A DNA stretch of 64,000 nt, taken from positions 165,351 to 229,350 of the forward strand of contig JAJQGJ010000002.1 of assembly GCA_021200565.1 (NCBI GenBank), in the 5' to 3' direction. Shown piece by piece: positions 5,970 through 62,695 of this stretch; within the stretch, counting starts at the first letter, position 1; every line of letters starts with the position of its first letter. The notes under the pieces were generated by a model, which worked only from the letters and a program-made list of their open reading frames with translations, ran no database searches and was not told where the DNA came from. The stretch comes from Oscillospiraceae bacterium (lineage in GTDB: Bacteria > Bacillota > Clostridia > Oscillospirales > Ruminococcaceae). A program made the position numbers and the translations under genes.

Positions 5970-5998
5970 AGTATATCACAAGAACCAGAGGTTGTCAA
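5970..5998 (-). promoter_or_regulatory. Promoter of tRNA-Leu
   Basis: On the minus strand TTGACA and TATACT are spaced by 17 nt, about 14 nt upstream of the mature tRNA 5' end. Confidence 0.75.
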
Positions 5999-6028
5999 GC
6001 GTTTTTTGAGACAAAATAGCGGCGTTCG

Positions 6029-50109: not shown

Positions 50110-50138
50110 TTGACACATCAGGAAACATATGGTATAAT
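50110..50138 (+). promoter_or_regulatory. Cassette 1 peptide promoter
   Basis: Perfect TTGACA and TATAAT with 17 nt spacing. The transcript would begin near the shared leader motif AGCAAGAGAG. Confidence 0.85.
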
Positions 50139-50199
50139 GTCGATAGCAAGAGAGTGAAAAAGCGGCTTGATCTTCGATAAAACTAGGGGAGGTGGCTGT

Positions 50200-50304
50200 A
50201 TGACGATTTTCGAGATAATCTCAACGATTATTTCTTTGATAAATCTGATTGCGGACATTTTCTTTAGAATCCTCGGCTTAAAATCCGGGGATAAAAAGAA
50301 ATAG
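50200..50304 (+). CDS. Cassette 1: 34-residue membrane peptide, candidate type I toxin
   Basis: The peptide starts MTIFEIISTIISLINLIAD and ends GLKSGDKKK. It has a single hydrophobic segment over most of its length and a basic tail. GGGGAGG lies 8 nt before the ATG, and the leader carries its own consensus promoter. A convergent promoter downstream drives RNA from the other strand. Similar genes recur four more times in this window. The layout resembles Fst/Ldr or holin-like type I toxins, which damage membranes when overproduced, but no family is recognised and toxicity is inferred. Confidence 0.75.
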   Translation: MTIFEIISTIISLINLIADIFFRILGLKSGDKKK

Positions 50305-50412
50305 CCGCGATCTAAACTAATAGGGACGGCTGATTTCCAAATTTGGTGCAGGCTCTGTATCTGCACATTTTAGATCAAGCATGAACTGTTAGGGCAGTTC
50401 CGCTCTCTTGCT
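50292..50412 (-). ncRNA. Cassette 1 antisense RNA, candidate antitoxin
   Basis: About 120 nt, from a consensus promoter to a hairpin (AGCCG with CGGCT) followed by ATTTCTTTTT. It begins with AGCAAGAGAG, then a GAACTG/CAGTTC hairpin and a TGCAG/CTGCA-type hairpin. It overlaps the 3' UTR and last codons of the peptide mRNA. Confidence 0.7.
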
Positions 50413-50418
50413 ATTACT

Positions 50419-50447
50419 ATTATACCCCAAAGCCGCCCGATTGTCAA
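50419..50447 (-). promoter_or_regulatory. Cassette 1 antisense promoter
   Basis: On the minus strand TTGACA and TATAAT with 17 nt spacing. The -35 box starts 8 nt after the fruK stop codon. Confidence 0.85.
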
Positions 50448-50454
50448 CAGCTTT

Positions 50455-51354
50455 TTATTTTTTCAGAAGCCTTTCAAACTCCTCTTTAGTGCAGAATGTC
50501 GTTCCGTCATGGGAGATTGCTCCCGCTGCTGCGGTTACTGCATACTTGAGAACCGTTTCGAGAGGCTGATTCTCTGTGAGAGCCAGAATCGCTCCGGCAA
50601 GCATATTGTCTCCGGCGCCTGAGGTACTTCTCACCGGGACTTTTACAGCTTCGCAGCTATAGCACTCGTTTTCGGAAACTATGACCGCTCCGTCTTCGCC
50701 TCGGGACACAAGAGCTATCTGCACGCCGTAATCGGAGATGAGCTTTCTTGCAGCCGAAACTATCTCGCTTTCGGAAGAAATCTTCCCGACAACCGTTTCA
50801 AGCTCGTAAATGTTCGGCTTTATCATGAACGGCTTGGCTTTTAGCCCTTCAAGAAGCAGCTCGCCCTGTGCGTCGAGGATGACTTTTCCACTCGAAAGCT
50901 CGCCGAGTGCACGATAGATGCCGCTTCCGACGCCCTTCGGGACGCTTCCGGCAAGGACTATGAACTCGCTGTCCTTGGAAGACTCTATAATCGAAGCCTT
51001 CAGCACTTCGATGCTTTCAGAACTGACTTCCGGGTTCGACTCGTTTATCTCAACCGTCCGCCCGAGATCAGTCTCCATAATCTTCAGGTTCGTTCTGAGA
51101 CATCCCGGACATTCAGTAAACCGGCACTCAACGCCCTCGATTTCAAGAGTTTCGGGGATAGCCTCGCCACCGGAAAAGTTAAACCCAATCGCCCGGCTCG
51201 TTACTCCCAATCTCGAAAGAGCCCGGCTGACATTGATCCCCTTGCCGCCAATGTCAAGACTGACCTGCTCAACCCGGTTCATAGAATCCAGATCCAATTT
51301 CCCGGTCTTCACCGTTTTATCTAAACAAGGACTAAGCGTAACTGTGGTTATCAT
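50455..51354 (-). CDS. fruK: PfkB family sugar kinase, probable 1-phosphofructokinase
   Basis: The 299-residue ribokinase-fold enzyme starts MITTVTLSPCLDKTV, the pattern of FruK/LacC hexose-phosphate kinases, and has GGKGINVSRAL near residue 36 and the anion hole STSGAGDNMLAGA near 240. It probably turns fructose 1-phosphate into the bisphosphate. Tagatose 6-phosphate kinase is the alternative, since no PTS gene lies beside it. GGAGG lies before the ATG at 51354. There is no terminator before the cassette 1 antisense promoter. Confidence 0.85.
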   Translation of the reverse strand: MITTVTLSPCLDKTVKTGKLDLDSMNRVEQVSLDIGGKGINVSRALSRLGVTSRAIGFNFSGGEAIPETLEIEGVECRFTECPGCLRTNLKIMETDLGRTVEINESNPEVSSESIEVLKASIIESSKDSEFIVLAGSVPKGVGSGIYRALGELSSGKVILDAQGELLLEGLKAKPFMIKPNIYELETVVGKISSESEIVSAARKLISDYGVQIALVSRGEDGAVIVSENECYSCEAVKVPVRSTSGAGDNMLAGAILALTENQPLETVLKYAVTAAAGAISHDGTTFCTKEEFERLLKK

Positions 51355-51380
51355 AATAAAACCTCCGGTAGAATGCAAAT

Positions 51381-51424
51381 GGCTCCCCTGCTAAGGGGAG
51401 CTGTCAGCGAAGCTGACTGAGAGG
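51381..51424. repeat. R2 half element upstream of fruK
   Basis: GGCTCCCCTGCTAAGGGGAGC, then CAGCGAAGCTG and CTGAGAGG. Confidence 0.75.
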
Positions 51425-51462
51425 TGCGCTGACCAACGGGAGGCGTGTCGCCGCAGGCGACA

Positions 51463-52731
51463 TCATGCCTTCGCCACTTTCTTCGCCGGTTTATCTGCAT
51501 CCGGATCAATCTCCCCTGCCTTCTTAAGCGCTATCTTGGTAAGCGTCGGTCCTACCAATTCGTAAACCATGACCGAGAAGAGAACTACATTTCTTATGAG
51601 CGCACCGTCCTGCAGATTCGCAGCAGTTGTCGCCATTCCGAGCGCAACGCCTGCCTGAGGGAGAAGAGTGATTCCCAAATATTTCTGAATTTCCGCACTG
51701 CAGCCGGTCATTTTGGTAGAGCTGAACGCTCCGAAAATCTTTCCGGCAGAACGGAAGACGATATAGGTTATACCGACAAGCAGAACGAGCGGCTGTGTCA
51801 GAATGCTGAGATCCAATTCCGCACCGGAAATTACGAAGAAGAGGACGTTTACAGCGGATGTCCACCGGTCGTCGTTCTCCATAACTGTGCCCGAAAGCTC
51901 ACTTGTGTTGCAGAAGATTGCGCCGGTTATCATGCATGTGAGTAAGAGCGAGAAGCCGATCTTCACTCCGCCTATTTCAAATTCCGACATCGAAACGGCA
52001 GCAGCCAGGATAACAATTCCTATCGAGATAGACATTCTGTTTGCCCTTGACTTGAAGAATTTCTCGAACCATCTGAGAATAAGTCCCATAACAATGCCCA
52101 AAACTATCGAAAGTACAATCTCAATAACCGGCTCTAAGATGATGTTCACAACCGAAACTCTTCCCTGCTCGAGAGCGTCTGCAATTCCATAGGAAACGGA
52201 GAAGAGAACCAAGCCCACTGCGTCATCGATTGCTACTACCATCAGTAGCAGCTTTGTGAGCGGTCCGTGCGCTTTATACTGGTTGACGACCATCAACGTT
52301 GCCGCAGGAGCGGTTGCGGAAGCGATTGCTCCGAGAGTGATAGCCGCCGGAAGAGATATAGCATCCGGGAAGATGAAATGAAGTGCAACAAGCCCGATGT
52401 CGACGACAACGGTTGTGACAACAGCCTGCAGAATTCCGACTGTTATTGCCTGCTTGCCCATCGATTTGAGCTCGCTGACCTTGAATTCGTTTCCGATAAG
52501 GAACGCTATAAATGCCAGAGCTACCTGTGAAATAATAGAAAAGCTGTCGACTTCCTCAAGCGACGTAAAGCCCAGACCCTCAATTCCGAGAGCACCCAGG
52601 CAGAACGGACCCAAAAGTATACCTGTAACGAGATAAGCCGTAACGGCGGGAAGATGCACCAGCTTTGCAAGTCTTGTCATCAGAAGCCCGCAAATCATTG
52701 CGAGTGCCAGACATATCAGAATTTCCTCCAT
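51463..52731 (-). CDS. Cation:proton antiporter, CPA2 type
   Basis: The 422-residue protein has about twelve membrane segments and the Na/H exchanger fold. LLMVVAIDDAVGLVLFSV holds the adjacent aspartates (near residues 167-168) of electrogenic CPA2 exchangers, after ATAPAATLMVV. The C-terminus is short, hydrophilic and lysine/alanine-rich, with no TrkA domain. The transported ion, Na or K, cannot be told. The ribosome site is weak. It has its own promoter. Confidence 0.88.
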   Translation of the reverse strand: MEEILICLALAMICGLLMTRLAKLVHLPAVTAYLVTGILLGPFCLGALGIEGLGFTSLEEVDSFSIISQVALAFIAFLIGNEFKVSELKSMGKQAITVGILQAVVTTVVVDIGLVALHFIFPDAISLPAAITLGAIASATAPAATLMVVNQYKAHGPLTKLLLMVVAIDDAVGLVLFSVSYGIADALEQGRVSVVNIILEPVIEIVLSIVLGIVMGLILRWFEKFFKSRANRMSISIGIVILAAAVSMSEFEIGGVKIGFSLLLTCMITGAIFCNTSELSGTVMENDDRWTSAVNVLFFVISGAELDLSILTQPLVLLVGITYIVFRSAGKIFGAFSSTKMTGCSAEIQKYLGITLLPQAGVALGMATTAANLQDGALIRNVVLFSVMVYELVGPTLTKIALKKAGEIDPDADKPAKKVAKA

Positions 52732-52783
52732 TTTTGACCCACTTCTTTCCTGAAAATAATCGAGATATTCTGATCAGTTACTA

Positions 52784-52812
52784 AGTATAGCACAATGTGC
52801 CGGCTAAATCAA
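52784..52812 (-). promoter_or_regulatory. Promoter of the antiporter gene
   Basis: On the minus strand TTGATT and TATACT are spaced by 17 nt. Confidence 0.6.
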
Positions 52813-52887
52813 AGTATTTTTTGCACAATCTTATTGTGCGGAAAAGGGAGGAAATTGGCGATACTGCTCGCCCTACGGGCTCGCAGA

Positions 52888-53007
52888 CCCCTCAGTCAGC
52901 CTACGGCTGACAGCTCCCCTTAATAAGGGGAGCCAATAGCAACCTATCCGAGAATACAAAAGGCTCCCCTGTCAAGGGGAGCTGGCGCCCGAAGGGCGCC
53001 TGAGAGG
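52888..53007. repeat. R2 repeat between the antiporter and ClC genes
   Basis: A complete copy with CTCCCCTTAATAAGGGGAG and CTCCCCTGTCAAGGGGAG hairpins, followed by GGAAGTTCGGC/GCCGAACTTCC and CAGTTGCCC/GGGCAACTG hairpins up to the ClC stop. Confidence 0.82.
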
Positions 53008-53055
53008 TGGAAGTTCGGCAGCGCCGAACTTCCGCAGTTGCCCGTAGGGCAACTG

Positions 53056-54660
53056 CTATACATCCACCGCCCGTCTCGACTCAATCTTCTGCTCCCCCAC
53101 AATCGCATAGAGCTCCTCTTTCGTCGCAGAGTTGTCGTAGGTCATATACCTAACATGCAGGATGTCGCCTTCTCTTAAGGTGTTGTCGCCATGGCTGTCT
53201 ACCTCGGCTCCGGCGAGCTCGCCGTGCTTGACCGAAAGGACAAAGAGGTTCTGAGGCCAGAAGATGTCTCTTATCTGCTTTCCGACGGCGAAGGTGTTCA
53301 CGCCAACGGTGACGAACGTGTCGATGACCTTCGGAACCTTGCCATAGTTTATCTCTCTGATTCTGCCGGAAACAACCTCTTCATTGATGGATTCTGCGCC
53401 GAACGCTTCGGTCACTATATATGACAGCGCAGCCGCAAGTATTACCGGGAGGATATTTCCCGAGCAGCCAAGAGCTTCAATCGAGAAGACCATCGCCGTC
53501 AGCGGGCACTTCATCATACCACTGATTCCGGCGGTAATACCAAGAACAACAATGGTGCTGTAGTACTCAGAGCCGATAAGCCCGGCGCTGATTGTAACAT
53601 CGGCAACGAGCGATGCGACAAGCGCACTCAGCACAATAATCGGGACGAACATACCGCCGTTGATGCCGGTGTTGTTCGCAGCAAGCAGCATTGTAGCACG
53701 GTACAGAAGTATCGCAAGGATTATATACCAGATGACCTTTCCCTCAAGCAAGCTGTCGACAAGGTCGTGACCGGTTGAGATGAAGTCATAGGAAATGAGC
53801 CCGAATGCGAATGTCAGCATGAAGACGATGAATATCTTGAGCCTCAGGCTCATTGCAGAAAGAGTCTCGCCGATGAATCTTCTCATCACCATGAAATAGT
53901 GGAGGAATGCAACCGACATCAGCCCGACAATCAGTGCGCAGACGGCAATAACCCAGAGCTGCGAAAGCCCCAATTCCTTGACGTATTCTGAGATGCCCGG
54001 GAACATGTCGGCGTCCATTCCAAGAAGCGGACAGAGCCCACGGACGGTTATCGACGAAAAAAGAACCGACGAAAAAGCCGTCATTATAATCATCGGGCTG
54101 ATTCTCTGGTGAGCCTCTTCTATTGCGAACATGATTCCGGAGATTGGCGCATTTGTCGCCGCAGTGAATCCAGCGCACGCTCCGCCGGTCATGACATACC
54201 TGTCCCAAGCCTGGTTCTTTCCGGCAAGGGTCTTGACCGTTCCACGTCCTATAGCTGTTCCTATCTGGACGCTCGGTCCTTCGCTGCCTAAAGGCACTCC
54301 GACAAAGAAGCTTGAAAGCGATGCCAGGGTTACTCCGACAAGGTTTTTGAGCCAGTTGAAGCGGATTCCACCACGGAGGATTCCTATTGCCGTCGGAATT
54401 CCGCCGCCCTTTAAGTTTGGTGTCTGCTTGTAGACGAATGCAAGCACTGCCGCCATACAACCTAAAATCAGAATTGCAGGTAGAACCAGCACCGGCTTGC
54501 TTCTGACTGCAGAGTAGACAGTTTCGGACAGATTTATAACCTTACCGGCAGCAAATCTATATAAAACGATAAAAGCTCCAGTAATGGTACCCGCAATAAA
54601 GCTGAATATAAGCGCCGGCAAGGCGATATTTTTGACGTAATTTAAATTGCGTTTGAACAT
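53056..54660 (-). CDS. ClC family chloride transporter with TrkA-C domain
   Basis: The 534-residue product has the ClC fold with GGGIPTAIG near residue 87 (selectivity loop, Gly where Ser is common), PLGSEGPSVQIG near 119 with the gating glutamate, and GINGGMFVP near 335. A glutamate pair in IEEAHQR is at the position of the internal proton glutamate, so H+/Cl- exchange is more likely than a channel. A C-terminal TrkA-C-like domain (about residues 450-520) may sense a ligand. The ribosome site is weak. Confidence 0.92.
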   Translation of the reverse strand: MFKRNLNYVKNIALPALIFSFIAGTITGAFIVLYRFAAGKVINLSETVYSAVRSKPVLVLPAILILGCMAAVLAFVYKQTPNLKGGGIPTAIGILRGGIRFNWLKNLVGVTLASLSSFFVGVPLGSEGPSVQIGTAIGRGTVKTLAGKNQAWDRYVMTGGACAGFTAATNAPISGIMFAIEEAHQRISPMIIMTAFSSVLFSSITVRGLCPLLGMDADMFPGISEYVKELGLSQLWVIAVCALIVGLMSVAFLHYFMVMRRFIGETLSAMSLRLKIFIVFMLTFAFGLISYDFISTGHDLVDSLLEGKVIWYIILAILLYRATMLLAANNTGINGGMFVPIIVLSALVASLVADVTISAGLIGSEYYSTIVVLGITAGISGMMKCPLTAMVFSIEALGCSGNILPVILAAALSYIVTEAFGAESINEEVVSGRIREINYGKVPKVIDTFVTVGVNTFAVGKQIRDIFWPQNLFVLSVKHGELAGAEVDSHGDNTLREGDILHVRYMTYDNSATKEELYAIVGEQKIESRRAVDV

Positions 54661-54694
54661 TTGCGATTAATGAACCCCTTTTGTTATGCTAAAC

Positions 54695-54748
54695 TTGTAG
54701 GGGCGGATATTATCCGCCCGTTGTAGTGCTGACCATCTTGGTCGGGCT
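54695..54748. repeat. R1 repeat, partial, at the degV stop
   Basis: A complete left arm and a worn right arm (TCGGGCTATTTC). The worn end overlaps the last codons and stop of the degV gene. Confidence 0.7.
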
Positions 54749-55598
54749 ATTTCTTAAAGAACAATACCCCAAGACAATTCGGTCCGCAATGGCAGGAGAC
54801 GGTGCAGCCGGCATAGGTCTCAAGGATATTCTCATCCTCAAACGGCTGCAGCTCCTTGACGAGCAAGCGCACCTTGGTGACTATGTCGTCCGGAACATGC
54901 GAATGGGTGATGAAAATCCTTCCGGTGTCGATGTCTGTTCTTCCCGCAAGCCTGCCTCGGACGTAGTCAAGGATCGACTTTTCCATCGATCCACGGTACT
55001 TCTTCCCGACAATCATTGTGCCTTCCGAAACGACTATCTCAGGTCTTAGCTTCAGAAGATTCGCCCCGAAAGCGACAACTCCGCTGCATCTGCCGCCTTT
55101 CTGGAGATAGTCAAGCGTCTGCAAAACGAAGCTGACGTCGAGTTTCTCCTTCATCTCATTGAGCTTTTCGGCAATTTCAGAAGCCGATAGCCCGTCGTTT
55201 GCAAGCTCCCTTGCCTTGATTGCAAGGTGCCCCGAGCCGGTTGAAAGATTTCTTGAATCGACGGGATAGACATGCCCGAGATCGGATGCTGCGATGCAGG
55301 CGTTCTGGTAGCAGGAGGAGAACTCGCTTGAGATGTTGATGTGAACAATCTCGCAGCCCTCGTCGACAAACGGTTTGAAAACGTCCTCATACTCGGAGAC
55401 CGAAACGGCAGACGTCTTCGGAAGGACGCCAGTACGCCCGACGTAATCAAAGATCTCAAGCGGCGTGACATCCACTCCATCCCGCCTCATCTCCTCGCCC
55501 AGGATCGTCCCAAGCGGAAGGGGCTTAATCTCATACTTTCGATAAAGCTCCGGACTCAGATCACATGTCGAGTCGCAGGTTACGATTATTTTGCTCAT
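54747..55598 (-). CDS. DegV family fatty-acid-binding protein
   Basis: The 283-residue product belongs to the DegV/FakB family, whose members present fatty acids to FakA kinase for phospholipid synthesis. It has the N-terminal IIVTCDSTCDLSPEL segment, TSAVSVSEYEDVF near residue 64, and the fatty-acid-binding serine region NISSEFSSCYQNA near 88. AAAGGAG lies before the ATG at 55598. No fakA is in the window. Confidence 0.92.
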   Translation of the reverse strand: MSKIIVTCDSTCDLSPELYRKYEIKPLPLGTILGEEMRRDGVDVTPLEIFDYVGRTGVLPKTSAVSVSEYEDVFKPFVDEGCEIVHINISSEFSSCYQNACIAASDLGHVYPVDSRNLSTGSGHLAIKARELANDGLSASEIAEKLNEMKEKLDVSFVLQTLDYLQKGGRCSGVVAFGANLLKLRPEIVVSEGTMIVGKKYRGSMEKSILDYVRGRLAGRTDIDTGRIFITHSHVPDDIVTKVRLLVKELQPFEDENILETYAGCTVSCHCGPNCLGVLFFKK

Positions 55599-55639
55599 GT
55601 AGGTACTCCTTTCGAATTTAGTATTCATTATGTAGAACT

Positions 55640-55714
55640 TGTAGGGGCGGATATTATCCGCCCGCCATACGATGACGGCGAACCATATTCGGGCGGATAA
55701 TATCCGCCCCTACA
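55640..55714. repeat. R1 repeat, complete copy
   Basis: Two full inverted arms with a 26 nt centre, between degV and the cotH-like gene, ending 3 nt before the cotH stop. Confidence 0.85.
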
Positions 55715-55716
55715 TT

Positions 55717-58194
55717 TTACCACCACCTACTCGGCAGCTCCGCCTCCAATATCCTTTCCTTTGGGTACGGCGTGAACTGGACATAGCTGTCCGAAAGCTC
55801 ATCATACTTAAGAGCTGAATTCTTTGCGGCGTCTCTCAGATACACCTCCGAAATCACTTCACCTTCGGCATCTCTAAGAGTGACCGTCTCGAATTCGCTG
55901 AAATTGAAGCTCAGCTGAACCAAGCCGACGGAATCGTCACGGAGATAGTTCTTGCAGACCAGCTTGAGCTCCTCGCCGGAAGCAAGGGCTCCCGAAGTTA
56001 TTGTGTATGAATATGTACCGTCGGAAACGCTCAGCCCGACGAGGCTGACTGTCTCTTCGCCGTAATTTTTAATCGTTACGTAGTCCTGATAGCTGCCCTT
56101 GTAGCAGACCTCCGAAATCCGGAGCCCGGCTGTGTCGCAGCTCGTCACGAGGCTGATTTTTATATTGTCGCCGTAGAGTTCACCCGAAATCTCGACTTCC
56201 TCGTCATAGACCTTCTCGCCGTTGATCTCCCAGTACTCAAACCGGTAGCCTTCAACCGGCTGGCAGGAAAGAATCTGTGAAGTGCCATCAAAATAGTAGC
56301 CGCTGAATGTGTATTCGTCACCCGGGTCAATTCTGGCTGTATTATATGTTATTTCGGCGTGGTCGGAAGCCACGATTCGGACAAAATAGGTTGATTTTGA
56401 ATCGTATTCCGGGAAAATAGCGCTAATCTGCGTCTTGGCGGAGTAGGGTCTGCCCTCGATCCAGTCTTTTGCATTCTCAAGCTCGCTCGAAATGCTCCAG
56501 GTTGAGGTCGTTCCCGCCTCGCCGGCTTTGACAATCTCGTGAAGTCGTTCTGTGTTGAGGCTGTCGAGGACGTCCGAAACCTTGTCTGAATCACAGTACC
56601 AGTTCATGATGTCGCACAAAATGTTGACAAACCGCTCTTTGATGTCGTCCCGCTTGCAAAGCGAGATGAGAAGGTCGCTTCGGGTGTATTTTTCGCCGTC
56701 GTCGTGGACGTCGTCATACCAGTCCTCCGGCATGAGCCCGAAATACTCCTCATCGAAGAGATCCTTGATGTTATACTCGAAGAAGCTTGAGCCATAGAGA
56801 CCAAGTGCGAAGTCGTTGTCGTAGATGAGGAACCGCCACTTGCCGTCGAAGACTTCATCTTCAGAGGAAAGTGAAGTATCCCCCGAAACAAATCTATACA
56901 CTTTGTAATTATTATTGGGCCAGTCGCCGTTGCCTACGTAGGCGCACATGGCGTAGTAGGTCAGCATGTTGTCGATGTCGACAAGCTCCTCGAACTCGGC
57001 AAAAATGGCATCATCAGTGAGATCCTTGTAGGCATATGCCTGAACCGCTTCCCAGTCGCTCTTTGCTTCCTCAAACCGGTCATCATTATTACCATCTGTA
57101 ATCATGTACTCGCAGCCCTCAAGTATGTCCCAGGTTCCCTGCTCGACGGCATACTGGTGGTCGAGCCAGTCCTCCGAATAGGTGTCCTGAACCCAGGCGA
57201 AGCCGTAGTACTCGCCGTTGAGGAAGACAGCCGCAGCCCGGCAATTCTTGGCGTCCAGCCCGGCGTCCGCTGCGAGCGTCGAGACAACCTCATCCCTCTC
57301 GAAGAGATAGCCGTTGTCGTTTGCGCCGGCACGGAGGGAAATCTTGTTGTAGGACTTGATCTTGTCGCCGTTGACGTCCGTTTCGTCGGTGAAGAATTCG
57401 TATCTGAAGCGGTCATTTTCCGAGTCATACTCCTCCCGGGCATAGAGCCGGAGGTTTTTCTGGCTGTTAGAGCGGCTCCATCCGCCGTAAATTCTCAAGC
57501 CGCACGCCTGTGAGATGACGCAGCTGCCGTCGTACTCATAGACCTCGACATAGGCTGGGCGCTCACCCTCCATTCCGCTCTGGTTCCAGTTGGCGGGATC
57601 AGTCGGAACGATTTCGCCCTCTGGGTCGGTTGCCAGGTAGTCATCCCGCATCTTTCCGGCGATGAAAATTCCGTCCTCATAGTTATAAAGGTAGTCCGGG
57701 TCGATTGAAATTGAGAAAACGAGGCAGTCGAACCGCTCGCTGATGTTCGCTCCAAGGAAGTAGCTCCGGGTGACGGTCTCCGAAAAGCTCCCGTCAGAGT
57801 AGACGGCGCAGGCACGGATGGTGTAAAGAATGCACTCTTCGCTGTCCTTGACCTGCATCGTGATTCCGCCTGAGTAGCTTTCGCCGGAGGTCTGCGGCTC
57901 CGAGCCGTCAGTAGTATATAAAATGTCCGTCACTTCAAGATTTCCGGCGGCTGATGAGCTGAGATAGAGGTGCTGAGTGCTCGAATAGAACCCGCAGTCG
58001 ATAGAAAACCTCACCGGCTCCTGGTCAGTCGAACCGACGCTGTCCGTAACGAGCGACGAAGTCGTGATCTGAGAAGCATGAAAGCTCACCCAGTTCTGCG
58101 CAAGAATTGTAACGACAATGAGCACCGCCAGAAAGACCGCCACCGCCGCCGTGAGAATCACCTTATATTTTGCCTTGCCATTAGTACCGTTCAT
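55717..58194 (-). CDS. CotH kinase family surface protein
   Basis: The 825-residue product has one N-terminal membrane anchor (about residues 10-32), a chitobiase/hexosaminidase C-type beta domain near 90-140 (DILYTTDGSEPQTSG), a CotH kinase domain near 160-500, and a lamin-tail-like beta domain near 660-770. CotH kinases phosphorylate proteins on Ser; here FLIYDNDFALGLYG carries the DxD-type metal site. GGGAG lies 7 nt before the ATG at 58194. It has its own promoter and no spore-coat neighbours, so a wall role is as likely as a spore role. Confidence 0.87.
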   Translation of the reverse strand: MNGTNGKAKYKVILTAAVAVFLAVLIVVTILAQNWVSFHASQITTSSLVTDSVGSTDQEPVRFSIDCGFYSSTQHLYLSSSAAGNLEVTDILYTTDGSEPQTSGESYSGGITMQVKDSEECILYTIRACAVYSDGSFSETVTRSYFLGANISERFDCLVFSISIDPDYLYNYEDGIFIAGKMRDDYLATDPEGEIVPTDPANWNQSGMEGERPAYVEVYEYDGSCVISQACGLRIYGGWSRSNSQKNLRLYAREEYDSENDRFRYEFFTDETDVNGDKIKSYNKISLRAGANDNGYLFERDEVVSTLAADAGLDAKNCRAAAVFLNGEYYGFAWVQDTYSEDWLDHQYAVEQGTWDILEGCEYMITDGNNDDRFEEAKSDWEAVQAYAYKDLTDDAIFAEFEELVDIDNMLTYYAMCAYVGNGDWPNNNYKVYRFVSGDTSLSSEDEVFDGKWRFLIYDNDFALGLYGSSFFEYNIKDLFDEEYFGLMPEDWYDDVHDDGEKYTRSDLLISLCKRDDIKERFVNILCDIMNWYCDSDKVSDVLDSLNTERLHEIVKAGEAGTTSTWSISSELENAKDWIEGRPYSAKTQISAIFPEYDSKSTYFVRIVASDHAEITYNTARIDPGDEYTFSGYYFDGTSQILSCQPVEGYRFEYWEINGEKVYDEEVEISGELYGDNIKISLVTSCDTAGLRISEVCYKGSYQDYVTIKNYGEETVSLVGLSVSDGTYSYTITSGALASGEELKLVCKNYLRDDSVGLVQLSFNFSEFETVTLRDAEGEVISEVYLRDAAKNSALKYDELSDSYVQFTPYPKERILEAELPSRWW

Positions 58195-58242
58195 TTTAAT
58201 CTCCCGCAAAACCCGCATAAAATCAAAAATCTGCTACCTTAT

Positions 58243-58271
58243 ATGATAGCAGATTTGAGGGGAAATGTAAA
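58243..58271 (-). promoter_or_regulatory. Promoter of the cotH-like gene
   Basis: On the minus strand TTTACA and TATCAT are spaced by 17 nt. It faces away from the cassette 2 antisense promoter 15 nt further on. Confidence 0.6.
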
Positions 58272-58285
58272 GACCAAAAAAACTA

Positions 58286-58314
58286 TTGACAAAGCAATAG
58301 CAATGGGGTATAAT
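58286..58314 (+). promoter_or_regulatory. Cassette 2 antisense promoter
   Basis: Perfect TTGACA and TATAAT with 17 nt spacing. Confidence 0.85.
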
Positions 58315-58319
58315 AATAG

Positions 58320-58441
58320 CAAGAGAGCTGAACTGAAGTCACTCAGTTCGGGTTCAACCTTATATGTACTGCTGAGTAACAGTACTAAATTCGGAAATTG
58401 ACCGTCCCCTTGTGTCTTAGGCTAGGCGGTTATTTCTTTTT
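58320..58441 (+). ncRNA. Cassette 2 antisense RNA, candidate antitoxin
   Basis: About 122 nt. It starts with AGCAAGAGAG, followed by a GAACTG/CAGTTC hairpin, an AGTACTG/CAGTACT hairpin and a terminator stem ACCGTCC with GGCGGT followed by TATTTCTTTTT. The terminator loop carries CCCCTT, complementary to Shine-Dalgarno-like sequence. Confidence 0.7.
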
Positions 58442-58534
58442 ATCCCCGGATTTTAAGCCGAGGATGCCAAGTACTATGTCCGCCATCAGATTAATTACAG
58501 ATATTACCGTCGTAATAACTTCGAAAATCGTCAT
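58430..58534 (-). CDS. Cassette 2: 34-residue membrane peptide, candidate type I toxin
   Basis: The peptide starts MTIFEVITTVISVINLMAD and ends GLKSGDKKK, identical in sequence to the cassette 3 peptide. AAGGAGG lies 8 nt before the ATG. The leader holds AGCAAGAGAG and GGTTTGACC. The last four codons and stop form the U tract of the antisense terminator on the other strand. It lies between the cotH-like gene and a solitary antisense-like RNA. Confidence 0.75.
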   Translation of the reverse strand: MTIFEVITTVISVINLMADIVLGILGLKSGDKKK

Positions 58535-58615
58535 AGCAGCCACCTCCTTAGTTTTATCGAAGGTCAAACCGCAACAATCGCCGCATGCAAGCAATTATCC
58601 TCTCTTGCTGCCAGT

Positions 58616-58645
58616 ATTATATCATAGGTTCATAATGCTTGTCAA
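58616..58645 (-). promoter_or_regulatory. Cassette 2 peptide promoter
   Basis: On the minus strand TTGACA and TATAAT are spaced by 18 nt, one more than in all other cassettes. Confidence 0.8.
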
Positions 58646-58664
58646 CAAGATTATTTGCTAATTT

Positions 58665-58772
58665 TAAAATAAAACCGCACCTGATTGATTCAGTGCGGCA
58701 TTCCGTAAGATAGTCATTGATTATCGGAAAGAGTGACCGCTACTTGAATTGCCGTTCAGGTAGCCTCTCACC
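58665..58772 (-). ncRNA. Solitary cassette-type RNA without a peptide gene
   Basis: About 108 nt from a consensus promoter to a terminator (CCGCAC with GTGCGG, then TTTTATTTT, 58665-58698). It begins GATGGTGAGAGG, as in the cassette 5 peptide mRNA, and has CGGTCACTCTTTCC in common with cassette 5. No ATG with a ribosome site is found opposite, so this looks like an antitoxin RNA that lost, or never had, its partner. Confidence 0.6.
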
Positions 58773-58778
58773 ATCTAC

Positions 58779-58807
58779 ATTATACCCCACCGCTATTGAT
58801 TTGTCAA
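58779..58807 (-). promoter_or_regulatory. Promoter of the solitary RNA
   Basis: On the minus strand TTGACA and TATAAT with 17 nt spacing. The 51 nt from 58779 to 58829 are identical to 59369-59419 at cassette 3. Confidence 0.8.
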
Positions 58808-58820
58808 TAGCTTTTTTTAT

Positions 58821-58981
58821 TGTAGGGGCGGATATTATCCGCCCGAAAACCCCGACGACTCGTGGTATTTCCCGCAAAAATGCGCCGTCGCAAAGCGGCG
58901 GATGATGTTCGCCCAAAGCCGAGACGATGCACAACAGCGGGCGGGCAGGTTACGAAGCAAACTGTATATCCAGCCCCTACA
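58821..58981. repeat. R1 repeat, expanded copy left of cassette 3
   Basis: It starts with a normal R1 arm and ends with a variant, GCCCCTACA preceded by TGTATATCCA. Its last 48 nt (58934-58981) are a perfect inverted match to 59411-59458 on the other side of cassette 3. Confidence 0.8.
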
Positions 58982-58988
58982 TTTTATA

Positions 58989-59007
58989 CTATGCAACTTT
59001 TGTTTGA
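58989..59007 (+). promoter_or_regulatory. Conserved block upstream of the cassette 3 peptide promoter
   Basis: CTATGCAACTTTTGTTTGA, found also upstream of the peptide promoters of cassettes 4 and 5 in the same orientation and close spacing to the -35 box. Confidence 0.55.
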
Positions 59008-59013
59008 ATTTTG

Positions 59014-59042
59014 TTGACATGGGGTGGTGGATGTGGCATAAT
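59014..59042 (+). promoter_or_regulatory. Cassette 3 peptide promoter
   Basis: TTGACA and CATAAT with 17 nt spacing. Confidence 0.8.
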
Positions 59043-59123
59043 GTCGACAGCAAGAGAGGATAATTGCTTGCATGCGGCGATTGTTGCGGTTTGACCTTCG
59101 ATAAAACTAAGGAGGTGGCTGCT

Positions 59124-59228
59124 ATGACGATTTTCGAAGTTATTACGACGGTAATATCTGTAATTAATCTGATGGCGGACATAGTACTTGGCATCCTCGG
59201 CTTAAAATCCGGGGATAAAAAGAAATAA
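59124..59228 (+). CDS. Cassette 3: 34-residue membrane peptide, candidate type I toxin
   Basis: Identical peptide and identical 186 bp DNA (59048-59233) to cassette 2 in opposite orientation. The peptide is MTIFEVITTVISVINLMAD followed by a short hydrophobic stretch and GLKSGDKKK. AAGGAGG lies before the ATG. The 3' UTR and antisense part differ strongly from cassette 2, so each antisense RNA should match only its own mRNA beyond the stop codon. Confidence 0.75.
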   Translation: MTIFEVITTVISVINLMADIVLGILGLKSGDKKK

Positions 59229-59362
59229 CCGCCCCAACTTAGCGTCATAAAGGAACGGTCGATTCTCAAATTTAGTGCCACTCCTCAGCTTATTCCACTA
59301 AGTTGAGTTAAGAGCACATATTGGGTCGAACCGGAACTGAGTGTGATCAGTTCGGCTCTCTT
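59216..59362 (-). ncRNA. Cassette 3 antisense RNA, candidate antitoxin
   Basis: About 145 nt. It begins AGCAAGAGAG, then GAACTG/CAGTTC hairpin, GGTTCGACC, a long imperfect hairpin around CTCAACTTAGTGG, and a terminator stem ACCGTTCC with GGGGCGGT followed by TATTTCTTTTT. Confidence 0.7.
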
Positions 59363-59368
59363 GCTTAT

Positions 59369-59397
59369 ATTATACCCCACCGCTATTGATTTGTCAA
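59369..59397 (-). promoter_or_regulatory. Cassette 3 antisense promoter
   Basis: On the minus strand TTGACA and TATAAT with 17 nt spacing. Confidence 0.85.
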
Positions 59398-59410
59398 TAG
59401 CTTTTTTTAT

Positions 59411-59480
59411 TGTAGGGGCTGGATATACAGTTTGCTTCGTAACCTGCCCGCCCGCTGTAGTGCAAGTTGTGGGTTCGGGA
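59411..59480. repeat. R1-type repeat right of cassette 3
   Basis: Begins TGTAGGGGCTGGATATACA. The first 48 nt are the perfect inverted partner of 58934-58981. Confidence 0.8.
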
Positions 59481-59489
59481 GGTACCCCC

Positions 59490-59525
59490 AAAAAAACTCC
59501 CCCGTCTGTCTGCATCAGGCGGGGG
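59490..59525 (-). terminator. Terminator of the surface protein gene
   Basis: On the minus strand CCCCCGCCTG pairs with CAGACGGGGG and is followed by AGTTTTTTT. It is a strong intrinsic terminator about 40 nt past the stop. Confidence 0.88.
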
Positions 59526-59563
59526 AATCTGAATTTTAATTATCCTTCGTTAACAGGAGGAAA

Positions 59564-61216
59564 TTATCTTCTCTTAGAAGCAACAGCAGCAGCTGCAGCT
59601 ACAGCCATAGGAACGAGAGCCAGAACGATACCAGTGGTAGGGTTGGTCTCAGCAGCAGGCTCCTCATCAACAACAGAGAGGTCCTCGCCGTCGTCTTCAG
59701 TCTCAGTCTCGCCTTCCTCAACAGGCTGCTCGGTATCAACAGTTGTCTCGTCAACAGGCATGTTGATAAGGAGGTAAGCACCGCCGTCAGCGGAAACCTT
59801 CAAAGCAGCACCAGAATCCCACCAGTTCTTGTTGGTGTAAACATCGCTGCTGGAAATAGTAGCGGTTACGAGCTGATGAACATAGAATGTGCCATTGTAG
59901 ATACCATAAGTGGTATTGTAAAGGAGGCTAGGATCTACGTCGAAGGTGAGCTTATCGGTAGAACCATTGAGTACATAGGTGCCAGCAACCTTGTTGTAGA
60001 AGCCCAAAGAGCTAGCAGAAGAATACCAGAGTGTGCTGTTGGAGTTGTCCAAGCTGGTGCTGTCAACGTTAGCATAGAGGGTGTAAACAGCCAAGCCAGA
60101 AACATAACCAGTTCCGTAGGTGGAGAGGTCGATAACAACCTGAGCAGTTGCGCCTTCAGTAGCAGCAGCAGTAGCTACGATAGCTCTGTTAGCAAGGGTG
60201 TGATCCCAGTAGAGAGCAGAACCAGTTACGTCAGTACCGGTAGTGTCGGAAATGATGGTAACAGTGCTAGCGCTGGAAGAAGAAGCGTCGTCCTTGGTTA
60301 CAGAACCGAAGTCTACGATGTCCTTAGCGTTGATAGTAGAAGGTGTGGAACCGTCAACAGGAGTGTAGGTGATCTTCATAGAAGAACCATAGTTAGAGCT
60401 GTCATAGTTAGCAACTCTTACAGTGTAGTCAGTGGAATCGTCGATAATGACCTCATCTGCGAAGAAGCCGTCGCCATCGGTATCAACAGTAGTGTCAACG
60501 AGCATAGCAGTTACATTAGCGTTGTCGCTAACCCAAGCATCGAATGCACCGGGCATCCAACCAGAGTATGCGCCGTAGCCAGAAACACCGAGAAGGCTGT
60601 CAGCATCAACATAGGAGATAACGTCATTGCAAGCATCCAAATAGCTGGTGCTCTGAGCAGTAACAGTAGCAGTGATGGTTACAGGGGTGTTCTCAGAAAC
60701 CAAAGTGGACTGAGGAATCTGTGCGTTGCCAACAGTGCCATAGTTTCTTGCGAAGTATCCAACATCAACATACTGAGTGTATACACTGTAGTTGTAGCCG
60801 AGCCAGTAAACATAGCCATTAGCATCAGTAAGAGCTGCGTTTACGTCAGTTGTATAAGTTGTAGTATCAGTACCATCAACATAGATAGGAGATACATCAG
60901 TAGAAGCATCAACGCCCTTAAGGGAAACGGTTACGCCGTTAACAGTAAGGGTGTATGCGATGTCATAAGCTGCGAAGCTACCATAAGCTGCCAAGTTAGT
61001 AGGCAAGATAACCTCGAGCTGGTCACCATTGTTGAGGTAACCGAAGATTGCATAAGCGGGAACGGTCCAAGTCATGGTAGCTGAATAGCTATAGCTGGTA
61101 CCATTAGTGAGCGGGATCTTGATTGTCTCGTACTCAGTAGCGAATGCAGAGAGAGCCATTGCAGAGATGGCGAGCGTGACTGCCAAAACGACAGCCAAGA
61201 GCTTTCTCATTTTCAT
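59564..61216 (-). CDS. Large secreted surface protein with NPTTG wall-type C-terminus
   Basis: The 550-residue product starts MKMRKLLAVVLAVTLAISA, a signal peptide with a likely cut after ALSAFA near residue 27. The mature part is rich in Thr, Ser, Asp, Tyr and Val with no motif I recognise and no cysteine-based fold. Two calcium-type DTDGDGFF residues lie near 260-270. An acidic linker is followed by NPTTG, a hydrophobic segment and KRR, which resembles a sortase sorting signal. AAGGAGG, a perfect promoter and a strong terminator suggest high expression. The reading upstream of 61216 is leader sequence. Confidence 0.85.
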   Translation of the reverse strand: MKMRKLLAVVLAVTLAISAMALSAFATEYETIKIPLTNGTSYSYSATMTWTVPAYAIFGYLNNGDQLEVILPTNLAAYGSFAAYDIAYTLTVNGVTVSLKGVDASTDVSPIYVDGTDTTTYTTDVNAALTDANGYVYWLGYNYSVYTQYVDVGYFARNYGTVGNAQIPQSTLVSENTPVTITATVTAQSTSYLDACNDVISYVDADSLLGVSGYGAYSGWMPGAFDAWVSDNANVTAMLVDTTVDTDGDGFFADEVIIDDSTDYTVRVANYDSSNYGSSMKITYTPVDGSTPSTINAKDIVDFGSVTKDDASSSSASTVTIISDTTGTDVTGSALYWDHTLANRAIVATAAATEGATAQVVIDLSTYGTGYVSGLAVYTLYANVDSTSLDNSNSTLWYSSASSLGFYNKVAGTYVLNGSTDKLTFDVDPSLLYNTTYGIYNGTFYVHQLVTATISSSDVYTNKNWWDSGAALKVSADGGAYLLINMPVDETTVDTEQPVEEGETETEDDGEDLSVVDEEPAAETNPTTGIVLALVPMAVAAAAAVASKRR

Positions 61217-61327
61217 GATAAATTTCCTCCTTAAAGAAATTATTTTTATCCCTATAAACGGGTATAGAGATTCGAGTTTTGGGCATAATATTTGCCCGAT
61301 TTGTTCGGAATAACCCGACACACCGAC

Positions 61328-61356
61328 ATTATAGCACCGAGGTGAGGTCTTGTCAA
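61328..61356 (-). promoter_or_regulatory. Promoter of the surface protein gene
   Basis: On the minus strand perfect TTGACA and TATAAT are spaced by 17 nt. The leader to the ATG is about 105 nt. Confidence 0.85.
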
Positions 61357-61403
61357 GTACTTTTTTAAATATTTGATGATCACTAGCACTCCTGCGGAGT
61401 GCG

Positions 61404-61518
61404 CCCTCTCTGTCAGCTTCGCTGACATCTCCCCCAAAGGGGGGAGACAAGTTTTCACCTCATCCACGCTCTTGGCTCTCCCTCTGGGAGAGCTGTCGCC
61501 ACAAGGCGACTGAGAGGG
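61404..61518. repeat. R2 repeat upstream of the surface protein gene
   Basis: A complete copy with CTCCCCCAAAGGGGGGAG and CTCTCCCTCTGGGAGAG hairpins. Confidence 0.82.
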
Positions 61519-61707
61519 CGACGGCGAAGCCGTCGTCGCCGCAAGGCGAATTAGAGGTCAATATCGGTCTCTCGGAATTAGCCTTCCGCTGTTTAAGTAG
61601 TGTCAAAAAGGGCGCAAAAAGTTGCAAAAAGTTTTGAAAAAATTATTTTTGGGCAAGATGCATAATTTGCGAATGATTTTGAGACAGCTGATGAGCATAG
61701 TGCACAA
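61519..61707. other. Stretch with no gene seen
   Basis: A/T-rich sequence with the loosely repeated GCAAAAAGTT. I see no reading frame with a ribosome site, no hairpin of note and no promoter pair. Confidence 0.5.
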
Positions 61708-61776
61708 TGTAGGGGCGGATATTATCCGCCCGCTGTTGTGCCATCGTCTCGGCTTGGGGCGAACATCATCCGCCCG
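61708..61776. repeat. R1 repeat, worn right arm
   Basis: A full left arm and a changed right arm (CATCATCCGCCCG). A CCAGCCCCTACA end remains at 61911-61922, so the R2 half at 61809 may have been inserted into this R1 copy. Confidence 0.7.
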
Positions 61777-61808
61777 AACCCAAGCATAACGTATCCTCGC
61801 ACAATTAT

Positions 61809-61854
61809 GGCTCCCCTACGCTTAGGGGAGCTGTCGCCGCAGGCGACTGAGGGG
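61809..61854. repeat. R2 half element within an R1 copy
   Basis: GGCTCCCCTACGCTTAGGGGAGC followed by GTCGCCGCAGGCGAC and TGAGGGG. Confidence 0.7.
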
Positions 61855-61952
61855 TGCGACCCCGCAGGGGTCGCTCGGCAAGGCGGCTTCAGCCGCCGCA
61901 GACGATTTATCCAGCCCCTACACTTAAATACAATTAAAATAAAACAGAGCTA

Positions 61953-61981
61953 TTGACAAAACAGCCTTTTAGGGGTATAAT
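61953..61981 (+). promoter_or_regulatory. Cassette 4 antisense promoter
   Basis: Perfect TTGACA and TATAAT with 17 nt spacing. Confidence 0.85.
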
Positions 61982-61986
61982 AAAAG

Positions 61987-62104
61987 CAAGAGAGCGGGGC
62001 TGCTGTAACAGCCTCGGCTCAACCAAAATGTGCAACTTCAGGGTTACACTAAAAGTGGAATTGGTCGAGGACTTGCTAACCTAGCTCTCGGCTATTTCTT
62101 TTTG
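61987..62104 (+). ncRNA. Cassette 4 antisense RNA, candidate antitoxin
   Basis: About 118 nt. It starts AGCAAGAGAG, then a GGCTG/CAGCC hairpin, GGCTCAACC, and a weaker terminator stem (CGAG with CTCG) followed by GCTATTTCTTTTT. Confidence 0.65.
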
Positions 62105-62196
62105 TTCCCGGATTTTAAGCCGAGAACGCCAAGTACTATGCCCGCAATCAGATCTATCAGTGAAATCACGATGGAGATCACGTCAGAAATCGTCAT
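62092..62196 (-). CDS. Cassette 4: 34-residue membrane peptide, candidate type I toxin
   Basis: The peptide starts MTISDVISIVISLIDLIAG and ends GLKSGNKKK. It has the same length, the same hydrophobic pattern and nearly the same tail as cassettes 1-3. GAGGAGG lies 8 nt before the ATG. The leader carries AGCGAGAGAG and GGCTTGAAC. A longer in-frame reading upstream has no ribosome site and crosses the promoter, so the short form is preferred. Confidence 0.75.
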   Translation of the reverse strand: MTISDVISIVISLIDLIAGIVLGVLGLKSGNKKK

Positions 62197-62257
62197 AACG
62201 ACCACCTCCTCAGTTTTATCCAAGTTCAAGCCGTTTTTTCGCTCTCTCGCTGCCGAC

Positions 62258-62286
62258 ATTATAACATATATTCGGTACGCTGTCAA
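62258..62286 (-). promoter_or_regulatory. Cassette 4 peptide promoter
   Basis: On the minus strand TTGACA and TATAAT with 17 nt spacing. The conserved block CTATGCAACTTTTGTTTGA lies at 62293-62311, just upstream of the -35 box. Confidence 0.85.
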
Positions 62287-62325
62287 CGATTTTCAAACAA
62301 AAGTTGCATAGCGCAAAAAAGGCTA

Positions 62326-62354
62326 TTGACAAAATAGCTCAGGTGGGGTATAAT
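62326..62354 (+). promoter_or_regulatory. Cassette 5 antisense promoter
   Basis: Perfect TTGACA and TATAAT with 17 nt spacing. Confidence 0.85.
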
Positions 62355-62359
62355 AAAAG

Positions 62360-62472
62360 AGGTGAGAGGGTTGCCAGAAGTGAGAATTCAGGCAACGATC
62401 ACTCTTTCCAAAATTCGATGAATTTAGTTCTAAGTAACCGCGCTGAAATGCTCAGGCGCGGTTATTTCTTTC
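62360..62472 (+). ncRNA. Cassette 5 antisense RNA, candidate antitoxin
   Basis: About 112 nt. It starts with GAGGTGAGAGG, has a GTTGCC/GGCAAC hairpin and a strong terminator (ACCGCGC with GCGCGGT, then TATTTCTTT). The 5' end differs from cassettes 1-4 and resembles the solitary RNA at 58.7 kb. Confidence 0.7.
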
Positions 62473-62551
62473 GGCGTTCGCCAAGGTCGAGACCTAATCT
62501 GATGGCTGTCAATACAAGAAGTATCAACTGGATGGTTTGTGCGATGTCCAT
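62462..62551 (-). CDS. Cassette 5: 29-residue membrane peptide, divergent relative
   Basis: The peptide starts MDIAQTIQLILLVLTAIRL and ends GERRKK. It shares size, one membrane segment, a basic tail and the convergent layout with the others but almost no sequence. GGGAGG lies about 9 nt before the ATG. Its last codons form the U tract of the antisense terminator, as in the other cassettes. Confidence 0.65.
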   Translation of the reverse strand: MDIAQTIQLILLVLTAIRLGLDLGERRKK

Positions 62552-62604
62552 TGAGGCTCCACCTCCCTTCGCAGGGAAAGAGCGACCATCCTCTCACCAT
62601 CGAC

Positions 62605-62633
62605 ATTATAACACATATTTCATGCACTGTCAA
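62605..62633 (-). promoter_or_regulatory. Cassette 5 peptide promoter
   Basis: On the minus strand TTGACA and TATAAT with 17 nt spacing. The block CTATGCAACTTTTGTTTGA lies upstream at 62640-62658. Confidence 0.85.
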
Positions 62634-62665
62634 CAAACATCAAACAAAAGTTGCATAGCGTAAAA

Positions 62666-62690
62666 TGTAGGGGCGGATATTATCCGCCCG
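62666..62690. repeat. R1 single arm after metA
   Basis: One complete left arm, 5 nt from the metA stop. With the CCCCTACA end at 61911-61922 it brackets cassettes 4 and 5. Confidence 0.7.
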
Positions 62691-62695
62691 TCTTT

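Follow-up and report, generated by a model that had tools for sequence, protein, structure and literature searches.

Organization of the cassettes

The window analysed here is a stretch of 64,000 nucleotides from an Oscillospiraceae bacterium (assembly GCA_021200565.1, contig JAJQGJ010000002.1, positions 165,351 to 229,350 of the forward strand). Between positions 50110 and 62633 it contains five small cassettes in which two face-to-face promoters enclose a gene for a small membrane peptide and a gene for an RNA antisense to the end of the peptide gene; a sequence-only reading had proposed them as a candidate new family of type I toxin-antitoxin systems. All five cassettes are present where they had been placed, each with a convergent promoter pair around a membrane peptide frame. 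The quality ascribed to the promoters held up as well, with nine of the ten having perfect TTGACA and TATAAT boxes and the tenth (at 59014, with CATAAT) matching at 11 of 12 positions, with spacers of 17–18 nt. Between 49800 and 63000 there are eleven perfect (12/12) promoters, comprising these nine plus one that belongs to an orphan RNA (58807) and one near the start of an unrelated open reading frame (61356). The whole genome contains 72 + 75 copies of the perfect pattern, versus 0 + 1 when the same pattern is read backwards as a control, and we estimated that about 0.35 convergent pairs separated by 280–420 bp would arise by chance genome-wide (72 × 75 × 140 / 2.18 million); the window alone contains four pairs in which both promoters are perfect.

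Cassettes 1 to 4 are of one kind (type A), and cassette 5 (type B) has another peptide and RNA family. Cassette 1 (50110–50447, + strand) extends from the toxin promoter (50110–50138, +) to the antisense promoter (50447–50419, −). It encodes the peptide MTIFEIISTIISLINLIADIFFRILGLKSGDKKK (50200–50304, +) and a 124 nt antisense RNA (50291–50414, −) that goes from a 5′ box to a U-tract on the AAAAAGAAATAG codons; the first box of its toxin mRNA, box 1 (ATAGCAAGAGAG; 50143–50154, +), is complementary to 50403–50414. Cassette 2 (58286–58645, −) encodes MTIFEVITTVISVINLMADIVLGILGLKSGDKKK (58430–58534, −) and a 126 nt antisense RNA (58318–58443, +). From box 1 to the stop codon, cassette 3 (59014–59397, +) has the same toxin half as cassette 2; its peptide (59124–59228, +) is identical, and its antisense RNA measures 151 nt (59215–59365, −). 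Cassette 4 (61953–62286, −) encodes MTISDVISIVISLIDLIAGIVLGVLGLKSGNKKK (62092–62196, −) and a 117 nt antisense RNA (61989–62105, +), and cassette 5 (62326–62633, −) encodes MDIAQTIQLILLVLTAIRLGLDLGERRKK (62462–62551, −) and a 115 nt antisense RNA (62361–62475, +). As had been described, strong ribosome sites and membrane peptides of 29–34 residues with a basic tail are seen in all five, and every antisense gene ends over the last peptide codons. When length is measured from box 1 to a point 14 nt inside the end of the frame, four antisense RNAs fall within the 110–145 nt originally given, whereas that of cassette 3 is slightly longer.

Most type A peptide genes end with AAA AAG AAA TA(A/G), followed by CCG or TCG, and the opposite strand of these last codons and the stop constitutes the U-tract and the stem end of the antisense terminator. 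Among the cassettes collected below, the exact AAAAAGAAATA tail occurs in 33 of 35 of subtype A1 (the two exceptions being read-through frames), 16 of 16 of A2 and 12 of 23 of A3. The antisense RNA spans nearly the entire 3′ untranslated region of the toxin mRNA plus ca. 12 nt of coding sequence, and the toxin mRNA has a separate terminator whose stem encloses the −35 box of the antisense promoter, which is clearest in cassette 3 (59382–59401, +).

Distribution and types

A protein search of the source genome retrieved nine places: besides the four type A cassettes of the window there are five more, each with convergent perfect promoters. In a profile search of 60 genomes (the source genome, 30 others of its genus and 29 from elsewhere), matches at E ≤ 0.01 were confined to the genus, the best one outside having an E value of 0.03. 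Of the 60 loci fetched around peptide matches, 59 have the peptide enclosed by a convergent promoter pair, locus L067 being the exception. A filter demanding at least 10/12 in both promoters and at least 11/12 in one, plus a small frame with a ribosome site and a basic end, kept 100 distinct cassettes, four of which were set aside as "other"; the remaining 96 were assigned to types A1 (35), A2 (16), A3 (23), B (10) and C (12). Type C cassettes (L103, L105, L111–L118) are about 400–415 bp and have a long, hairpin-bearing toxin leader with a GGTCGACC-like palindrome ahead of the ribosome site; their antisense RNA also contains GTCGAC or a close variant.

The sequence-only reading had suggested peptide profile and RNA covariance searches, and the latter enlarged the set considerably. 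Model R1, built from 49 type A and C antisense RNAs, gave 119 matches (E ≤ 0.01) in 11 of the 31 genus genomes, and R2, built from 12 type B RNAs, gave 85 (E below 1e-8) in the same 11 genomes, a count that omits weaker matches, most of which lie on the strand complementary to strong ones, as well as single matches with E 0.001–0.005 in three more genomes. In all, the two models identify 204 antisense genes in these 11 genomes, with 11–25 per genome. Compared with the five copies first noticed, the source genome has 18 antisense genes of two RNA families and, next to the cassettes, an orphan RNA. By filtering, a small frame with a promoter facing it accompanies 72 of the 85 type B antisense loci, although in at least three of them (L203, L254 and L255) a frame other than that of the family was picked. 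With stricter filters, R1 did not match any of 118 other genomes of a family sample, which included at least G022 of the genus, likewise without a match. The clade contigs named in a DNA-pattern scan are Oscillospiraceae/Ruminococcus metagenome-assembled genomes. Judged from their sequences, these elements form a real, large and clade-specific set of type I-like cassettes.

The peptide frame is a gene under purifying selection

We calculated the ratio of non-synonymous to synonymous differences (pN/pS), pooled over pairs of equal length and 3–40% divergence and excluding the start codon and the last five codons. In frame, this ratio was 0.43 for A1, 0.38 for A2, 0.29 for A3, 0.32 for B and 0.26 for C, as compared with 0.73–2.22 in the two shifted frames of the five types, indicating that the frame is under purifying selection. 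Conservation of the reading frame in related genomes, which the sequence-only reading had named among the tests of its proposal, is seen in all five types. A hydrophobic core occurs in all 76 distinct peptides, with a best 19-residue Kyte-Doolittle mean of 2.1–2.6 depending on the type, and all 76 contain two or more K/R within the last eight residues.

Searches with the five window peptides did not produce any match over the cut-off in Pfam and NCBIfam. Likewise, two type A and one type B window peptides plus six others had no PHROGs match below E 0.01, three window peptides had none in PADLOC, and a PDB profile search returned a single match, with E 0.17, that was disregarded.

The antisense RNAs share a co-varying structure

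The 49 aligned antisense RNAs of types A and C fold into three helices (hairpin 1, hairpin 2 and the terminator), except that type A3 is devoid of hairpin 2, and 95.3% of the cells in paired columns are paired, a value that none of 500 shuffles attained. Eleven of 18 pairs changed on both sides (reached by 1 of 500 shuffles), the covariation score was reached by 0 of 500 and the number of further pair types by 15 of 500, with shuffles that ignore the relatedness of the sequences. Sliding the helix model lowered the paired cells to 25–56%. In the terminator helix, two of the commonest pairs are G-U when read as antisense RNA and would correspond to A-C in the mRNA, indicating that the folding strand is here the antisense one. 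RNAalifold by itself recovered only hairpin 1 for type A and C RNAs, and two helices for type B. The three helices are thus backed by compensatory changes.

No cassette RNA matched Rfam in the whole window at gathering score, RatA (RF01776) included, nor, by position, in 58200–62700 at E values up to 5; these scans yielded in total a tRNA and four sub-threshold matches. Within that scope, the cassettes contain two RNA families without a match in Rfam.

A 5′ box common to the two RNAs of a cassette

Downstream of their −10 boxes, the two RNAs of a cassette begin with the same ca. 10 nt, which vary from cassette to cassette; forms of this box 1 include AGCAAGAGAG, GACAAGAAAG, GACATGAGGAG, AGCAAGAGGG, GGTGAGAGG and GACAGAGAAG, among others. 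The longest stretch common to the two RNAs averages 10.1 nt within true pairs, versus 6.3 nt (standard deviation 0.2, maximum 7.2) in 2000 permutations of partners across the 96 cassettes, and for a second box the values were 9.2 versus 7.6 (standard deviation 0.16). Because box 1 is identical in both RNAs, the 5′ end of the toxin mRNA can pair with its own 3′ end. Folding predicted such 5′–3′ pairing above 0.5 in 96 of 96 mRNAs; since the box was selected for its match before folding, the permutation is the real test. Activation by 3′ processing was also considered, and is unsupported by folding, which shows no release of the Shine-Dalgarno sequence on truncation.

Box 1 might instead be a DNA operator or an initiation sequence, in line with its position just 3′ of both −10 boxes and its purine-rich composition. 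However, a common regulator would keep a single form, whereas there are a dozen or so, several per genome, and most match their own partner best. Seven or more nucleotides are common to both RNAs in 90 of 100 cassettes and fewer than seven in the other 10, which does not favour an operator either. Overall, we consider this explanation unlikely, although it deserves more weight than the other alternatives below, and we favour an RNA-RNA pairing element.

Probable type I toxin-antitoxin pairs and the alternatives

The type I reading is well supported by anatomy, frame selection, the co-varying antisense structure and the matching RNA ends. We assign a probability of roughly 0.82 to the cassettes being chromosomal type I toxin-antitoxin pairs, each acting in the manner of txpA/RatA of Bacillus subtilis, and we infer transcripts, duplex decay, activation and toxicity as follows. 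One promoter would produce an mRNA of ca. 285–390 nt (means by type) for a single-helix membrane peptide of 27–38 residues, and the facing promoter a structured antisense RNA of ca. 100–150 nt, fully complementary to the 3′ region of the mRNA and with its U-tract ending on the lysine-tail codons. The full-length mRNA would be held closed by pairing of its first ca. 10 nt (box 1) with its own 3′ end, to which a second box before the ribosome site would often pair too, while local pairing would cover the Shine-Dalgarno sequence. First contact would probably be a loop-loop interaction between the antisense RNA and the mirror hairpin in the mRNA 3′ region, leading to a long duplex and to its destruction by a double-strand RNase. 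The txpA and RatA RNAs overlap by ca. 120 nt and their decay is described as requiring RNase III (PMC3531473), and by analogy the same may apply here. If the supply of antisense RNA failed, the longer-lived mRNA would be processed or opened, and the peptide would damage the membrane.

Several observations weigh against this model. Shine-Dalgarno accessibility is predicted to be low in full-length and truncated mRNAs alike, and by eye cassette 1 has a weak toxin terminator. The AAAAAGAAATA tail is a feature of type A, the listed tails of types B and C being variants with no exact occurrence, and in G023, a genome of the genus, A3-like peptides lie between paired promoters yet R1 has no match.

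The peptides could also be non-toxic small regulatory or structural membrane proteins, with an antisense RNA that merely tunes their dose, because their conservation is no proof of toxicity. Eight of the nine scanned neighbours of the window cassettes have Pfam matches, mostly housekeeping and none phage-like, and we found no match for one window peptide in phage and plasmid collections, nor for the end pattern in viral contigs, all of which would suit such proteins. Nevertheless, the 11–25 antisense genes per genome, the patchy presence in the genus and the different cassette types at one site (see below) fit an addiction module better, and layout and tail resemble those of known toxins; we therefore regard non-toxic proteins as improbable.

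Membership of the Fst/par family, to which the sequence-only reading had likened the layout, is very improbable. In pAD1, this system is described as having convergent promoters, a toxin of ca. 30 residues with a PXXXG motif and repeats at the RNA 5′ ends (PMC7472228), and the cassettes do combine convergent promoters, a membrane peptide of 29–34 residues with a charged tail and repeats at both RNA 5′ ends. But the five window peptides lack proline, and hence the motif; both RNAs carry the same repeats in inverted orientation, instead of direct repeats read oppositely; and there is no shared bidirectional terminator, the antisense RNA ending at the stop codon and the toxin mRNA ca. 140–175 nt further (by eye). 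As motif, terminator and repeat orientation all differ, we exclude Fst/par. Lastly, the idea of mobile non-coding terminator or promoter repeats with accidental frames, evoked by the repeated units, the inverted copies and a transposon-like repeat family nearby, is already contradicted by pN/pS (0.26–0.43 in frame versus 0.73–2.22 out of frame) and by the ribosome sites of all five window peptides.

If the type I reading is correct, this clade of gut Clostridia would be unusually rich in such loci, with 18 antisense genes in the 2.2 Mb source genome and up to 25 in a relative; published module counts are 14 for B. subtilis and 13 for Clostridioides difficile (PMC6563280). Furthermore, some 200 related toxin-antisense pairs would make a natural series from which to read the rules of RNA-RNA specificity, and the question of why genomes amass chromosomal type I systems would become directly testable by cross-neutralisation.

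Chromosomal sites and orphan RNAs

The Pfam-matched neighbours of the window cassettes are NusA, RimP, PfkB, a Na/H exchanger, a CLC channel, DegV, CotH and homoserine O-succinyltransferase. We compared, partly by eye, the site upstream of rimP, occupied by cassette 1, in the source genome and ten relatives. It contains a type A cassette in the source genome and, of another subtype, in G006; a further type, D, in G024, G001 and G027; and type B in G013 and G030. The site is empty in G025, contains in G029 a repeat that resembles a miniature inverted-repeat transposable element (MITE) and is similar to GGGGCGGATAWTATCCGCCC (see below), and has rearranged flanks in G002 and G019. All seven sites with a cassette have it starting directly after the pfkB stop codon with AAAAAGC(T/C)GTTGACA. 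Different cassette types occupy, therefore, one chromosomal site in sister genomes. The type D peptide (MSITEVLLLLDILLSAISLGYQLGSHRRK in G024) starts as type A and ends as type B. These cassettes (L282 2138–2460 in G024, L284 994–1318 in G001) have their own 5′ box (AGCAAATGGGGAC in G024), and their peptide looks like an A/B hybrid.

The toxin filter rejected 13 of the 85 type B antisense loci, but six of these have a perfect opposing promoter, so that the peptide may merely be missed there. Clear orphans, with no opposing promoter above 10/12, include L101, L223 and the window RNA at 58661–58772 (−), which was found with R2, has its own perfect promoter (58807–58779) and for which no peptide partner was found. 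The orphans L101 (404–516, −) and L223 (509–622, +) have perfect promoters and adjoin seemingly the same downstream gene in two genomes.

Divergence among co-resident cassettes

Within a genome, the same hairpin-1 loop recurs in only 1 of 634 pairs of R1 RNAs and in 7 of 319 pairs of R2 RNAs, the latter count leaving the loops of three RNAs unparsed. For instance, two copies in G024 have antisense RNAs that are identical outside the hairpin-1 core and differ in their loops. Cassettes 2 and 3, identical from box 1 to the stop codon, have antitoxin halves only 62% identical (gaps counted), and none of 24 matched between-genome pairs was as low. In 37 independent close pairs, the hairpin-1 loop changed 4.8 times (odds ratio) faster than other columns (p 1.5e-7).

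Together, the loop diversity, cassettes 2 and 3 and the different types at one site suggest selection for mutually incompatible antitoxins. This could be extended into an incompatibility system, which we propose tentatively and hold to be rather less probable than its negation. The hairpin loop and the matching end boxes would act as barcodes that make each antisense RNA fit its own mRNA only; a duplicate would survive only once its antitoxin half had been altered by mutation or by recombination with another cassette; and in this manner 11–25 mutually non-neutralising addiction cassettes would coexist per genome. Their common promoter and terminator ends would let cassette types replace one another at fixed sites, and orphan antisense RNAs would be trans-acting remnants able to disarm a toxin.

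Other data call for caution about barcodes. Loops also mostly differ between genomes unless the RNAs are close, and the antitoxin halves of the other two closest within-genome pairs are 93% and 97% alike. The excess divergence of the antitoxin halves of co-resident paralogues is suggestive only, with a Mann-Whitney p of 0.14 (8 pairs within genomes, 149 between) and 0.027 by label shuffling. Finally, the notion that the hairpin loop alone is hypervariable was discarded, since the terminator loop and a few other columns are equally fast; relaxed constraint fits too.

Other elements near the cassettes

The palindromic repeat GGGGCGGATAWTATCCGCCC, similar to MITEs or to repetitive extragenic palindromic (REP) sequences, has 111 exact matches in the genome, on both strands (control 0), and lies near several cassettes; its window copies are at 58821–58847, 61706–61732, 62660–62690, 54696–54720 and 55640–55714. 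Cassette 3 is flanked by 54-nt inverted repeats that are 98% complementary (58928–58981 and 59411–59464). A frame of 628 residues (59564–61450, −), with no Pfam match at E 0.001, has a perfect promoter near its start (61356–61328). A 7.6 kb contig (L104; G000:C1) twice contains a convergent pair of perfect promoters 183 bp apart (2617–2799 and 5971–6153), the copies being 3354 bp from each other; it may be a small plasmid that was assembled as a dimer and whose copy number is under antisense control.

Comparison with known systems

In the literature on type I systems in Clostridia, covered to the exclusion of most subscription papers and all bioRxiv preprints, we did not find this family described. 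The C. difficile systems CD2517.1-RCd8 and CD0956.2-RCd10, compared by description only, are likewise clostridial and convergent, with peptides of 34–59 residues and charged C-termini; they are among 13 potential modules, many of the C. difficile type I modules being in prophages and near CRISPR arrays (PMC6563280). Unlike in the present cassettes, no 5′ box common to both RNAs is mentioned as far as that source describes them. AapA/IsoA from Helicobacter resembles the cassettes in its several chromosomal copies and in a toxin mRNA closed by long-distance 5′–3′ pairing, in which, according to the description in PMC6733600, a 3′ element lies over the Shine-Dalgarno sequence. Here, in contrast, pairing with the 3′ end is predicted for the 5′ tip and the box before the Shine-Dalgarno sequence, and the 5′ leader involved is a copy of the start of the antisense RNA.

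The closest resemblance is to the TxpA/RatA-Hol_Tox loci, and it qualifies the claim of a new family: no cut-off was reached in Pfam, NCBIfam and Rfam, as stated above, but a stop-codon/terminator DNA module, AAAAAGAAATARCCG, the layout and the start motif tie the cassettes to this group. The module is shared by type A only, and the M..xE peptide start and a similar layout are also seen in those loci. Scanning a 257 Gb collection with the end module GGNRAYAAAAAGAAATARCCG retrieved 50 stretches, 20 of them outside the clade. Six of these 20 (L119, L166, L147, L151, L153 and L155) contain, by reading, a TxpA-like peptide; two of the six are contigs of Streptococcus danieliae that pass the Rfam cut-off for rli28, each with RatA over its cut-off once and with a peptide over that of Hol_Tox. 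The promoter finder detected a convergent pair around the module match in two of the 20 (L153 and L155). The 14 stretches without a TxpA-like peptide, of which five were read and nine assessed by the promoter finder only, resemble chance matches. One of the 31 genus genomes has a Hol_Tox locus that passes the cut-off; its end module is nearly identical to that of the cassettes and its layout similar. In the family sample of 197 genomes, the type A profile matched seven besides the source genome at E ≤ 0.01, and seven of ten loci fetched from this sample have a convergent pair at a relaxed threshold. Common 5′ boxes were rejected as a general feature beyond the clade, the Hol_Tox-like loci being individually near the shuffle level; two collinear boxes of 9–10 nt occur outside the clade only in L151 and L153.

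Kinship at the protein level is less clear, and here the comparison tells against the TxpA/RatA parallel. No window peptide matches Pfam Hol_Tox (PF16935), and no RNA matches Rfam RatA. Two of 16 type A and C peptides match Hol_Tox at E values up to 5, the best of 0.085 being far above the 1.7e-05 with which the S. danieliae peptide just passes. The type A profile aligns to seven Hol_Tox-like peptides with an hhalign probability of 89%, which none of 100 column shuffles reached; with the first five columns kept, however, 12 of 100 did, indicating that the signal is mostly the start motif. Comparisons of type B with these two profiles, type A and Hol_Tox-like, are weak (70% and 63%).

In summary, the cassettes share with TxpA/RatA a small membrane peptide with an M..[FY]E start and a lysine end (in the clostridial and streptococcal members examined), an antisense RNA that overlaps the 3′ part of the toxin mRNA and the AAAAAGAAATARCCG-type module. 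They differ from the TxpA/RatA, Hol_Tox and PepG1-SprG group in having peptides and RNAs below the family cut-offs, 11–25 antisense genes per genome, an antisense RNA that ends at the stop codon, a toxin terminator inside the antisense promoter, identical 5′ boxes on both RNAs and several RNA types. On this comparison of sequences, the cassettes probably work like txpA/RatA and are probably a diverged, clade-specific branch of the TxpA/Hol_Tox group.

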